A DNA stretch of 64,000 bases. It comes from Marinobacter sp. GTDB lineage: Bacteria > Pseudomonadota > Gammaproteobacteria > Pseudomonadales > Oleiphilaceae. The stretch lies in the NCBI GenBank assembly GCA_018402255.1, contig JAGYIS010000005.1:186001-250000 (forward strand), read 5' to 3'. How positions within the stretch are numbered: position 1 is the stretch's first letter; each line of letters starts with the position of its first letter. The position numbers were made by a program, and so were the translations under genes. Under the pieces are notes generated by a model, which had not been told where the DNA came from, did not search any database, and saw only the letters and a list, made by a program, of their open reading frames with translations. Positions 37,215 through 41,649 of the stretch are shown piece after piece.

Positions 37215-37304
37215 GGTGTGCCTCCTGGGTACGGACTGCTGTAAACTCCGGCAACTAGACGATTTGTACTACGAACAAGACCTATCATACATCCGGGCAG
37301 AGCC

Positions 37305-37412
37305 CGCGTGGGTGTTAGGGCCTTCCGGGACACGCTGTAAATACGTCCCTGTACGCTCGTCAAAAGCCATCCATGGCTTTTGACGGTCCCGGAAGGCCCT
37401 AACACCCACGCG
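37305..37412. repeat. Intergenic cruciform-type repeat, copy 1
   Basis: A perfect 26-base inverted repeat (37305-37330 with 37387-37412) encloses a core that starts CACGCTGTAAATACGTCC (37331-37358) and an inner perfect 12-base hairpin (37359-37370 with 37373-37384, GTCAAAAGCCAT and complement). Copy 2 lies at 39229-39333. It sits between the two divergent ABC genes and so in the promoter region. Confidence 0.85.
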
Positions 37413-37440
37413 AGCTCCCCAACTTTGGAGCTGTGACTAA

Positions 37441-39234
37441 GTGCAATCCTACGCTGACAACGATTACCCTGCTGACCACAAACCAGACTGGAAGGTGATT
37501 TCTGGCTTGTGGCCTTACTTGGCGGAATTCCGGGGTCGTGTGGTTATTGCTCTGGCTCTGCTGGTACTGGCCAAACTGGCCACCGTGGCCACGCCTGTGG
37601 CTCTGAAATACATTGTGGATTACCTGGATCAGAACCGTGGTGCGGACATGCTGCTGTGGGTTCCGATTATCCTGGTGGTGGCTTACGGCTCGCTGCGTTT
37701 TGGCGCCACACTGTTCAATGAACTGCGAGATGCGGTGTTCGCGCGGGTGGCCGAACGGGCGATGCGGCGGGTGTCGTTGCGCATTTTTGAACACTTGCAT
37801 CAGCGGGAGTTGGGTTTCCATCTTGATCGCAAAACCGGCGGCCTGGCCCGCGACATCGAACGGGGCACCAACGGCATCAGCTTTCTGCTGCGGTTTACCC
37901 TGTTCAACATCGTGCCTACGATTCTGGAAATCCTGATGGTCGCCGGCATTCTGCTGGTGGTGTTCAACGTTGGTTACGTGCTGGCGATTCTGGTCGCGGT
38001 GGTGGTGTACGTGGTCTATTCCATCAAGATTACCGAGTGGCGGACCAAGTTCGTGCGAGAGGCCAACGCCCGGGATAACCAGTCCAACTCGCGGGCGATC
38101 GACAGCCTGCTGAACTACGAAACCGTCAAATACTTCAATAACGAACGCTACGAAGCGCAACTGTACGACCAGAATCTGGACGATTGGGAGCAGGCGCGGC
38201 TGAAAAACCGCCTGTCGTTGGCCACACTCAACGCCGGTCAGGCGCTGATCATTGGTTTGGCGATGATTGCGATCATGGCGATGGCCGTGGGCGAAGTGGC
38301 CAGCGGTGAGATTACCCTGGGCGACTTCACCATGATCAACGCCTACCTGTTGCAGCTGTTCATTCCCCTGAATGCTCTGGGGTTTGTGTATCGGGAAATC
38401 CGCCAGGCGCTGGTGAATGTCGAACGCCTGTTCAAACTGCTGGGCGACAAACCGGCCATTCAGGATGCGCCGGATGCCACCGAGCTGGTAGTGACGAATG
38501 CCGAGGTGCGTTTTGACCACATACACTTTGCCTACCGGTCGGATCGTCCCATTTTGCAGGATGTGAATTTTACCATTCCGGCCGGTCATACCGTGGCGGT
38601 CGTGGGCGCCAGCGGCGCCGGGAAGTCTACCCTCGCCCGCCTGTTGTTTCGATTCTATGAGGTCGATCAGGGCGCTATCCGTATCGACGGTCAGGATATC
38701 CGCCAAGTGACACAGAACAGCCTGCGTTCGGCTATTGGCGTGGTGCCTCAGGATACGGTGCTGTTCAACGATACTCTGTATCGCAATCTGGCCTACGGCA
38801 ACCCGGCGGCCAGTGAGGAACAGGTTTACCGGGCAGCACGCCTGGCCCACCTGGAAGATTTTATCCACAGCCTGCCGGATGGTTACGAAACCAAGGTAGG
38901 CGAGCGCGGTTTGAAGTTATCCGGTGGCGAGAAACAACGGGTGGCCATTGCCCGGGTGATCCTGAAAAACCCGCCCTTGCTGATTCTCGACGAGGCGACG
39001 TCATCGCTTGATTCGTTATCAGAGCAGGCGATTCTGAGCGCGTTGAAAGAAGTCAGTCAACAGCGCACTACTCTGGTGATCGCCCACCGGTTGTCCACCA
39101 TTCGGGATGCCAACACCATTTTAGTGATGGATGGTGGCCGGATTGTCGAGAGTGGCAGCCACAACGAGTTGCTGGCTCTAGGTGGCCATTACGCCCATCT
39201 TTGGGAGCAGCAGCATCGGAGTGGCGAACAGTAA
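37441..39234 (+). CDS. ATM1-type ABC exporter
   Basis: A 597-residue half-transporter with six membrane helices and an ATPase domain (Walker A GASGAGKST, signature LSGGEKQRVAIARVI, Walker B LLILDEATSSLD). The sequence pattern, including the matrix of LDRKTGGLARDIERGTNGI and SLLNYETVKYFNNERYE, is typical of ATM1/HMT1 exporters that move glutathione conjugates or heavy-metal complexes. The start is GTG 37441; a stop codon directly precedes it and GGAG lies ~11 bases upstream. Its stop codon lies in the arm of repeat copy 2. Confidence 0.88.
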   Translation: MQSYADNDYPADHKPDWKVISGLWPYLAEFRGRVVIALALLVLAKLATVATPVALKYIVDYLDQNRGADMLLWVPIILVVAYGSLRFGATLFNELRDAVFARVAERAMRRVSLRIFEHLHQRELGFHLDRKTGGLARDIERGTNGISFLLRFTLFNIVPTILEILMVAGILLVVFNVGYVLAILVAVVVYVVYSIKITEWRTKFVREANARDNQSNSRAIDSLLNYETVKYFNNERYEAQLYDQNLDDWEQARLKNRLSLATLNAGQALIIGLAMIAIMAMAVGEVASGEITLGDFTMINAYLLQLFIPLNALGFVYREIRQALVNVERLFKLLGDKPAIQDAPDATELVVTNAEVRFDHIHFAYRSDRPILQDVNFTIPAGHTVAVVGASGAGKSTLARLLFRFYEVDQGAIRIDGQDIRQVTQNSLRSAIGVVPQDTVLFNDTLYRNLAYGNPAASEEQVYRAARLAHLEDFIHSLPDGYETKVGERGLKLSGGEKQRVAIARVILKNPPLLILDEATSSLDSLSEQAILSALKEVSQQRTTLVIAHRLSTIRDANTILVMDGGRIVESGSHNELLALGGHYAHLWEQQHRSGEQ

Positions 39235-39333
39235 GGGGGAGGCCCTCCCAAAACACGCTGTAAATACGTCCGTGTACGCTCTGCTCCGCCATCCATGGCT
39301 CCGCAAGGTTTTGGAAGGGCCTCCCCCTTACTG
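39229..39333. repeat. Intergenic cruciform-type repeat, copy 2 (also terminator-like)
   Basis: A 26-base inverted repeat with one mismatch (39229-39254 with 39308-39333) around a core that matches copy 1 at 27 of 28 bases (39254-39281), then an inner imperfect hairpin with the shared GCCATCCATGGC. The arms differ from copy 1 except for a GGCC-TTCC patch. It overlaps the stop codon of the ABC gene and lies before the recD stop, so it may end transcription from both sides. Confidence 0.85.
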
Positions 39334-39351
39334 TCGCATCAAGCTTGGGTG

Positions 39352-41649
39352 TTAATGTTCTCCAAGCCGAAGCGCCAGCCCTGAGGCTCGAACCACCTGC
39401 TGCCCCACGCTGTCTCTAAACACATGAGCGTCACCGGTGATCAGGCTGAACCAGTTTTTGGCCCGGGTGATGCCGGTGTATACCAGCTCCTTGGTGAGCA
39501 CTGGGCTGAGCCGGTCTGGCAACACCAGGCAGGTGTGGTTGAACTCCGAACCCTGGGATTTGTGCACCGTCATGGCGTAGACGGTTTCCAGCTGCTGCAG
39601 CCGGCTGGGCGAGATCCAGCGGATGCCGCCGGTGCTGTCAGCGCTCGGGAAGGCCACGCGCAGGGTGTCTTTCGGCTCGCCGGTGGCGGTTTTGTCCCAG
39701 GGCAGGCTGAAAGTAATGCCGATATCGCCGTTCATCAGGCCCAGGTTGTAGTCGTTGCCGGTAACCAGCACAGGGCGACCGGGGTACCAGCCTTCGGATC
39801 TCGGGATCAGTTTTTCTGCCAACAGATGCCTTGCCATTTGATCATTCAATCCTTCCACACCCCAGGGGCCTTTGCGTAACGCGCAGAGAATCTGGAAATC
39901 GTTGAACGCCTCCAGTACCTCAAGCGCCAGCGCGTCCCAATCTGCGCGGGGGCTGGTCGCGGTCAGGCCGTGATTCCGTAGCCGTTCGAGATAATGCCGG
40001 TAACCGACAGGAGGCTTCAGTGGCTGACTGTTCACCACTCGCCCTTGGCCAGCGTTGCGGAAGGCTTCCGGTGTGCCGGTGGTGGCGTGGCGGCAGATCT
40101 GTGCCAGGGTGTGTTCCAGCTCCGGTCTTGGGGTGTGGCCATTGAGCCAGATCACGTCATCGAAATCCGCGTTGCGGATCTGCTCTAAGACAGCCTTGTC
40201 CAATGTGTTGGAATTGACGGCTTCAGCCAGCTGGCGAATGCCGCTGTCCTGCTGGAACCGGTAGCTCTTGCGCAGCATGGCGACCGCCTGGTCCATGGCC
40301 TGGCCGTTGGGATCGACCAGGCCAGCCGGCACCTGGGATCCGGTGATGGTACTCAGCCATCGGGCGGTGGCCGGGGTGTAGTGAGCATCGAAAGCCCGCT
40401 GGCACAGCTCACCCAGCACCGCGCCGGCATCCACTGAGGCCAGCTGGTCCTTGTCGCCCAGCAGGATCAATTGGGCGTTGGTGGGCAGGGCGTCGAATAC
40501 CGAGGCCATCAGGTCGACATCGACCATCGAGGCTTCGTCGATCACCAGAATGTCCACCAACAGCGGGTTGTCCTTGTGATGGCGGAACTGGCGGGTATCC
40601 GGCCGGCTGCCCAGCAGGCGGTGCAGGGTGGTGACCTTGGTGGGGATGTCCTCCAGTGTTACGCCACCCGGCAGCTCGGTAAGGGGCAGTCGGTTGACGG
40701 CGCCGCCGATGGATTCGTTCAATCTGGCTGCGGCTTTACCGGTGGGCGCAGCCAGGCGGATGCGGTATTTACGCCCTGCCCGGGCCGGGTCGTCTGCAGC
40801 TACGGCCTGCAAGGCGGCCAGCAGGTTGACCACGGTGGTGGTTTTGCCGGTCCCGGGGCCGCCGGTGATCACGGCAAAGCGATTGCGGGCAGCGAGCGCG
40901 CAGGCCAGCTTCTGGTAATCCACCGATTCTGCAGCCGGGAACAAGGTGGCCAACGCCTGTGACAGGGTTTTCGCCGGAGCGCAGTCGGGGTCGGCCAGTG
41001 GCGATGGCAAGGCCAGGCGCTGCAAGATGCCCTCGGCAATGCGCTGTTCATAGCGCCAGAACCGGCGCAGGTACAGCCGGTTTTCGTTTAAAACGAGGGG
41101 TGTAGTAAGTGAGCCATCACTTACGGCCAGGGATCTGTCAAGAGAGGCTTTGCATTCCTCCAGGCTGGTCCGTGCAAACAAATCAGAGGGCTTCAGCTGA
41201 GTCAATTCGGCGGCTTCGGATTCGCTGAGACTGCTGTGAACGGGCTCCTCCGGCGGCAGCGATAAGGTGTTGCCGGCATCCGTCAGCAGGTTACTCAGAT
41301 CAATACAGACGTGGCCACGGCCGACCTGATGTGAGGCCAGCGCCGCCAGGAGCAACACCAGGGGTTGCGGGCGCTCGCCCTGCTCTTCTGACAAGTCACG
41401 GATCAAGCGGGCAAAGCCGACATCCAGCGGTCGAATCCACTGGGCCTGTTGCCACTGTTGCAGCAGGGCGTCGGTCTGTTCCAGGCTGGTCAACAAGGCA
41501 GAGTTATCCACAGCCCTTGGTGGGGTTTCTGGCACCGATGCTGTCGATAGCATCTTATCTACAGAATCGTCTGGAGCGCCGCCTTGTGTGTCGTCGCCCA
41601 GGTCCAGGGTAATCTGGTTGTCAGAATGGCCTTTGCGGGAACGGCTCAT
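39352..41649 (-). CDS. recD: Exodeoxyribonuclease V subunit alpha (RecD)
   Basis: A 765-residue SF1B helicase: N-terminal domain, Walker A ITGGPGTGKTTTVVNLLA near residue 260, Walker B LVIDEASMVDVDLMASVF, and the C-terminal helicase end TVHKSQGSEFNHTCLVLP and VYTGITRAKNWFSLI. It is the 5'-3' motor of RecBCD. Its ATG overlaps the recB stop (ATGA). Order recC-recB-recD on the minus strand, without the ptrA gene that separates recC and recB in E. coli. Confidence 0.95.
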   Translation of the reverse strand: MSRSRKGHSDNQITLDLGDDTQGGAPDDSVDKMLSTASVPETPPRAVDNSALLTSLEQTDALLQQWQQAQWIRPLDVGFARLIRDLSEEQGERPQPLVLLLAALASHQVGRGHVCIDLSNLLTDAGNTLSLPPEEPVHSSLSESEAAELTQLKPSDLFARTSLEECKASLDRSLAVSDGSLTTPLVLNENRLYLRRFWRYEQRIAEGILQRLALPSPLADPDCAPAKTLSQALATLFPAAESVDYQKLACALAARNRFAVITGGPGTGKTTTVVNLLAALQAVAADDPARAGRKYRIRLAAPTGKAAARLNESIGGAVNRLPLTELPGGVTLEDIPTKVTTLHRLLGSRPDTRQFRHHKDNPLLVDILVIDEASMVDVDLMASVFDALPTNAQLILLGDKDQLASVDAGAVLGELCQRAFDAHYTPATARWLSTITGSQVPAGLVDPNGQAMDQAVAMLRKSYRFQQDSGIRQLAEAVNSNTLDKAVLEQIRNADFDDVIWLNGHTPRPELEHTLAQICRHATTGTPEAFRNAGQGRVVNSQPLKPPVGYRHYLERLRNHGLTATSPRADWDALALEVLEAFNDFQILCALRKGPWGVEGLNDQMARHLLAEKLIPRSEGWYPGRPVLVTGNDYNLGLMNGDIGITFSLPWDKTATGEPKDTLRVAFPSADSTGGIRWISPSRLQQLETVYAMTVHKSQGSEFNHTCLVLPDRLSPVLTKELVYTGITRAKNWFSLITGDAHVFRDSVGQQVVRASGLALRLGEH

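Follow-up and report, generated by a model that had tools for sequence, protein, structure and literature searches.

A dispersed intergenic repeat of Marinobacter with variable paired arms and two predicted CsrA-type loops

Two inverted repeats flank one ABC exporter gene in a Marinobacter genome, and their near-identical cores stand between arms that differ in sequence yet are paired. The locus raises the question of what keeps such arms paired and on which strand the repeat is to be read. In the window, the whole 64,000-nt stretch that was analysed, the two copies are located as claimed in an earlier note on this DNA, with the following features.

Two copies in the window and their family

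37300..37417, minus (the GGA strand): copy 1, whole module, from an inverted-repeat search; fold -92.6 kcal/mol, z -13.0
37300..37331, strandless: arm of copy 1, 32 nt, the 3' arm of the GGA-strand RNA
37386..37417, strandless: arm of copy 1, 32 nt, the 5' arm of the GGA-strand RNA
37344..37351, minus: hairpin A loop of copy 1, CAGGGACG, of the form CANGGANG
37359..37384, minus: hairpin B of copy 1, with the loop CATGGATG at 37368-37375
39228..39334, minus (the GGA strand): copy 2, whole module; fold -65.5 kcal/mol, z -8.1
39228..39254, strandless: arm of copy 2, 27 nt, containing the ABC gene stop codon at 39232-39234
39308..39334, strandless: arm of copy 2, 27 nt
39267..39274, minus: hairpin A loop of copy 2, CACGGACG
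39290..39297, minus: hairpin B loop of copy 2, CATGGATG
37441..39234, plus: ABC exporter gene between both copies (PF00664, PF00005)
39352..41649, minus: RecD-like helicase gene, convergent with the ABC gene (PF21185, PF13245)

The arms are 97% complementary and 54 nt apart in copy 1, and 96% complementary and 53 nt apart in copy 2. They had been described as exactly 26 bases long in both copies; we measured 32 and 27 nt, and 26 nt is approximately the paired length that the two share. A 29-letter core pattern with one free position fits both copies with 0 mismatches and, with up to 3 mismatches allowed, matches nowhere else in the window; 100 shuffles gave none. The shared inner hairpin sequence GCCATCCATGGC is indeed present in both copies, at 37366-37377 and 39288-39299. 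No other inverted repeat in the window whose arms lie up to 150 nt apart combines such length with such pairing. Copy 1 lies in a divergent gap and copy 2 in the convergent gap shared with the RecD-like gene; the copies flank the ABC gene and copy 2 includes its stop codon, as the earlier note had it; the codon lies within the first arm.

The family extends far beyond these two copies. A loose core pattern gave 46 matches in the same genome versus 1 for a reversed control, and paired arms of 15-33 nt are present in 43 of the 44 matches inspected (L045 had been dropped beforehand as a chance match, and C7:472006 has no locus of its own), so that the possibility of a unique core, or of other copies without paired arms, falls away. 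The view of the repeats as a family with a near-constant core and differing paired arms was thus right. The sole armless match among the 44 is a half copy in L009 (~1450-1651; G000:C4:7436-7586), which lacks the second arm and directly precedes a full copy; a half copy and a full copy are arranged in the same way in L124. In other genomes some core matches have no arms, and 143 of 176 matches, own and other genomes together, reach the arm score. We built a covariance model, R1, on 43 of 45 copies (L019 and L035 were excluded for length). Its search of the own genome returned 107 rows that reduce to 95 places, after 10 opposite-strand rows and 2 rows from one 74-nt match were dropped. The genome thus holds ~95 intergenic copies, 94 of which were analysed further (C3:660764 lies outside the loci searched). 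Two nearby 74-nt matches at G000:C4:353287-353360 (L261 1058-1131 and 1188-1261) score about equally on the two strands.

R1 matches are present in 28 of 38 genomes of relatives and in 43 of the 274 genomes sampled from the class, the own genome included in both counts; the latter represent 38 of 222 genera, with up to 14 candidates scored per genome. One exact form of the core occurs, among the matches listed, in Marinobacter, Microbulbifer, Zobellella, Rheinheimera, Sedimenticola, and Oceanisphaera. In a Saccharophagus MAG, two copies follow each other in direct tandem ~153 bp apart (L048 2154-2407), and a third core match stands where the locus ends. MAGs labelled Klebsiella pneumoniae (L055, L057, L070, and L079), a label that looks doubtful, contain several copies in which the long arm pattern is distinct.

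The earlier note missed which strand is informative. Read on the minus strand, each window copy is a long stem enclosing two hairpins with loops of the form CANGGANG, which is the CsrA/RsmA consensus, and both loops have this form in 93 of the 94 own-genome copies. Among the 143 pattern matches kept from the 176 after removal of 33 with poor arms, hairpin A reads CANGGAN in all 143 (its last letter lies outside the cut stretch) and hairpin B carries CANGGANG in 134. The 52 copies from records not titled Marinobacter have two CANGGANG loops in 40 cases and one in 12; the two-loop rule is looser outside the genus. A high-affinity CsrA/RsmE site is described as an ANGGAX hexaloop placed directly on a stem (PMC4005645), and the two freely varying loop positions of both hairpins are the two free positions of ANGGAX. 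The genome has one csrA gene, the product of which matches CsrA/RsmE structures. From the loop consensus and this close relation to solved structures, the module is predicted to bind CsrA. We consider it fairly probable that the repeat is a mobile, partly domesticated, predicted CsrA-binding module, a long stem of nearly free sequence that carries two CANGGANG hairpins and is spread by small elements.

Orthologous sites, mobility and gene context

Thirty-eight genomes of the genus have an orthologous ABC gene, and 30 loci, the own one included, were examined. The module is present at site 1 in 11 of the 30 loci and at site 2 in 9; one more site 1 copy with poor arms is visible in L170, and L191 at site 2 is of a different type and was excluded from the divergence count. 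The mean pairwise divergence at site 1 was 0.035 in the core, 0.34 in the arms, and 0.45 at four-fold sites of the ABC gene; the corresponding values at site 2 were 0.125, 0.29, and 0.44. The higher core divergence at site 2 arises because the type of hairpin A differs between species. The core type switches there between species and the arms stay alike, hence recombination between copies also acts. At site 1, double changes were found in 19 of 28 arm pairs, and the inner 22 stem pairs contain 0 half-changed pairs across 10 distinct sequences. The orientation of the module at site 1 also differs between species, with 5 loci one way and 6 the other, so that no role tied to one strand is preserved at this site. 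Only shreds of the site 1 arms are left in the relatives L164 and L168, which we read as deletions; alternatively, L168 possibly shows the state of the site before insertion.

Other genomes show the module inside small mobile elements. In G096, 8 of 10 fetched copies lie inside an element of ~200-215 bp with terminal repeats like CTAAATACGTGTTCCGAAT; in G128, 6 of 10 fetched copies lie inside an element of ~225-232 bp with a 30-33-nt terminal repeat beginning GTTTTCAATGAGGCC. Since the two kinds of terminal repeat have no relation to each other, one module is carried by different miniature transposons. Among nine like copies in G128, seven share both arms, L270 has a paired change, and L271 has a one-sided change; the module is inverted relative to the element ends in 3 of the 9. 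Across six G096 copies the arms differ at 0-5 positions, and the changes almost always affect both sides jointly; the exception is one left-only change common to L277 and L278. Of the six cores, five are identical, and the flanks differ at up to 14 of 41 positions. We considered that the arms might derive from the target or be made anew with every insertion, and rejected this for the mobile copies seen because seven of the nine like G128 copies share both arms.

In the own genome, the longest direct repeat across the flanks of the 94 copies has a mean length of 5.46 nt versus 5.53 nt in mismatched controls, giving no sign of a target-site duplication; old copies could have lost theirs. The 3' flanks of some copies, such as L231, L235, and L241, have CAGGCTAGGGCC-like ends, possibly the terminal repeats of an older MITE family. 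The earlier note suggested looking for an associated REP-type transposase (RAYT), and no such link was found: the genome has a single Y1_Tnp gene, at C7:550528, and even the closest of the listed copies (C7:517158 and C7:666441) are over 30 kb away from it, so the candidate was rejected.

Copies less than 300 nt apart have a common geometry. All 12 such pairs in the own genome are arranged head to head with the GGA strands outward, as are, by eye, all 5 close pairs in G022 and all 8 close inverted pairs in further records. Three more close pairs in those records run in the same direction, one of them with a partial match, and no inward pair was seen there by eye. Inspection by eye showed neither a conserved spacer nor a shared promoter in the head-to-head pairs. 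CTAGCC stands on both sides of 3 of the 12 own-genome pairs, by which a composite element is only suggested.

These observations bear on the possibility that the repeat is a mobile element recognized as folded single-stranded DNA, in the manner of integron attC or IS200/REP, and that the CsrA consensus is coincidental. Such an element would fit arms that are free in sequence yet paired, the strand asymmetry described below, the flips at site 1 and inside the G128 element, and the geometry shared by all 25 close inverted pairs. However, the conserved and the free loop positions in both hairpins are those of the CsrA/RsmE hexaloop, and the moving ends in G096 and G128 are different, unrelated terminal repeats with the arms and core inside them. 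The flanks lack a direct-repeat signal, and the only Y1 transposase gene is not near any listed copy. We regard this explanation as unlikely.

The gene context was determined with codon-scored gene calls, which replaced a poorer first calling in which 44 of 143 copies had seemed to lie inside open reading frames. None of the 94 copies lies inside a called gene. Tandem gaps hold 32 and 27 copies in the two orientations, convergent gaps 19, and divergent gaps 13, with 3 at a locus edge. Copies in the tandem gaps lie a median of 46 nt from the upstream stop and 79 nt from the downstream start, and the stop is the nearer of the two for 40 of the 59 copies, which bears out a proposed position near gene ends. 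The 32 versus 27 tandem sites show no orientation bias relative to the flanking genes; within 80 nt of a stop, 25 copies are in GGA sense and 39 in antisense. Both this lack of bias and the inversion seen between species make a simple cis role less likely. A U-tract follows the stem in 0 and 5 of the 94 copies on the two strands, the 0 being that of the GGA strand, versus background counts of 4 and 4; the module is therefore not an intrinsic terminator, and this candidate was rejected.

A long 3' hairpin that merely protects or ends transcripts, so that pairing matters and CsrA does not, would suit the very stable folds, the absence of all 94 copies from called genes, and the proximity to upstream stops in tandem gaps. 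Against it, conservation at site 1 is about tenfold higher in the core than in the arms, which give the stability, the U-tract is lacking, and the loops are conserved as CANGGANG. This makes a purely protective or terminating hairpin quite improbable.

Pairing of the arms and the RNA strand

The outer helix of 26 bp is 98.0% paired in the 43 copies of the alignment, with two-sided changes at 25 of its 26 pairs. For the structure as a whole, the covariation score was 0.648, compared with 0.175 in shuffled and at most 0.141 in slid alignments of these 43 copies. The outer stem retains some letter preference, for GG at pairs 9-10 and, close to the core, for TTCC. In alignment A1, the GG at pairs 9-10 and a TTTCC at pairs 17-21 are separated by about one helical turn; a double-strand binding protein or RNase III might recognize these positions.

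The mismatches in the arms are distributed unequally between the two strands. In the 94 own copies, G-U pairs number 66 on the GGA strand and 21 on the other (p 1.4e-6; 35 other mismatches, 2649 cells), in counts that treat related copies as independent. The same direction was found in 143 copies gathered without the covariance model (156 versus 65) and in the 52 copies from records not titled Marinobacter, which were drawn by record title from 122 rows (66 versus 19). Bootstraps over copies in the set of 94 and over loci in the set of 52 reversed the asymmetry in 0 of 5000 resamplings. The wobble asymmetry therefore points to the GGA-strand RNA as the object of selection; a weaker alternative is that transcription of the GGA strand makes mutation strand-biased.

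The earlier note had offered two causes for the paired arms, selection for the structure or a copying process that rebuilds the second arm, and both have some support. Selection for the structure is supported by the wobble asymmetry on one RNA strand. Of the copying process, arm-to-arm copying at the DNA level fits both the lack of half-changed inner-stem pairs at site 1 and the paired arm changes in MITE-borne copies; rebuilding at each insertion does not stand for the mobile copies seen. In 23 own-genome copy pairs with identical cores, the arms are alike at 8.9 of 18 letters versus 7.9 in the background, which we read as drift after insertion, and rebuilding is possible there too. A DNA palindrome kept perfect by arm-onto-arm copying at replication, with no selection on RNA structure, would agree with the double-changed and never half-changed inner 22 pairs of site 1, the joint arm variation of the six G096 copies (one left-only change excepted), and the inversion observed, but it is very improbable, as DNA copying is blind to the RNA strand and the mismatches run ~3 to 1 in favor of GGA-strand G-U, which speaks against such copying as the sole cause, and as it leaves the slow core and loops unexplained.

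On the preferred reading of a mobile CsrA-binding module, each copy would present, on one RNA strand, two predicted CsrA sites on a rigid stem, and one copy is predicted to bind one CsrA/RsmA dimer. CsrA may thus be tethered to, or titrated by, any transcript that crosses a module on its minus strand, provided that transcripts reach the copies, as we assume. The copies occur in both orientations and are able to invert, so a common pool is more likely than control of each neighboring gene, and the main effect would be that of a shared pool of ~190 sites. The arms are likely kept paired by arm-to-arm DNA copying together with selection on the RNA stem. In the window, a transcript that runs leftward beyond the RecD-like gene would contain the CsrA form of copy 2, and the ABC transcript would carry the non-GGA strand of copy 2.

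A wider version can be put forward tentatively, and we hold it to be rather doubtful: a class-wide mobile CsrA sponge, in which unrelated MITEs carry the module, dozens to ~100 copies are under purifying selection, the pool of sites sets the working level of CsrA, and the copies invert as on/off units. If the CsrA reading is true, transposable elements would shape both the targets and the free level of a global post-transcriptional regulator, with ~190 predicted high-affinity sites within a 3.5 Mb genome. It would also tie the YPAL-type repeats to CsrA, suggest a role for a widespread class of bacterial cruciform repeats, and provide a natural system in which the stem sequence is almost free and the pairing and loops are kept.

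Relation to known repeats and RNA motifs

Among known repeats, YPAL/RU-2 of Yersinia has the same core on the GGA strand. Its local alignment score is 35 to the best copy here, and 24 and 28 to copies 1 and 2 of the window; shuffled copies score no higher than 14 and opposite-strand copies no higher than 11. The published 168-nt sequence (Table 1b of PMC2759123) folds into a long stem that bears hairpins at CAAGGATG and CATGGATG, and both repeats are intergenic and dispersed (PMC2229807, PMC2759123). According to PMC2229807, YPAL is 168 bp long, has target duplications of 3-26 bp, inserts in or beside dyad symmetry, and has moved recently. In contrast, the arms here are unrelated and vary between copies, and the flanks have no direct-repeat signal corresponding to the YPAL duplications.

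In the case of TwoAYGGAY (RF01731), the model matches copy 1 on the same strand at 37.0 bits (E 0.0011), under the gathering cut-off of 43 bits, and gives no match to copy 2 at E up to 10. It has 11 matches in the own genome, one of them above the cut-off (43.8 bits), and the 9 listed own-genome matches coincide in place and strand with R1 matches. Matches occur in 31 of 58 genomes and exceed the cut-off in 6 of the 58, the own genome included in both counts, and are absent from all 14 control genomes. Both TwoAYGGAY and the module have two GGA-loop hairpins upon an outer stem on the same strand; here two CANGGANG loops are present in 93 of 94 copies and the outer stem is 98% paired in the 43. 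TwoAYGGAY was predicted from motif matches to bind CsrA and is described as having a poorly conserved external stem (PMC4333381); it was recorded from the human gut, gamma-Proteobacteria, and Clostridiales (PMC2864571). It differs in being a model of 168 positions, and the parts of its descriptions cited here contain no high-copy, MITE-borne repeat with drifting paired arms.

CsrB/RsmZ RNAs likewise carry several GGA hairpins, which there can sequester CsrA, as stated in PMC4005645 and PMC4383904. The module differs from these in having two sites per copy in ~95 dispersed copies and in not being one expressed sRNA gene; no promoter (by eye) or terminator of its own was seen.

In the literature searched, we found no paper on these repeats in Marinobacter or Microbulbifer or as a variable stem, and none naming both CsrA and YPAL. 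CsrA and TwoAYGGAY were named together in two papers, in the second of them in unrelated sentences, and a tie among YPAL, TwoAYGGAY, the high-copy family of the own genome, and several MITEs was not met there. REP/RAYT and ERIC-type repeats are short, palindromic, intergenic, and at times arranged in inverted pairs. The module here differs from them in its length of more than 100 nt and the lack of a linked RAYT, and their core is presumably different from the present one. Finally, the Yersinia sRNA Ysr224 in Rfam weakly matches (E 0.37) the plus strand of the window at 37283-37389, opposite to the GGA strand, and the Ysr224 consensus seems to contain the same core as the window repeats.
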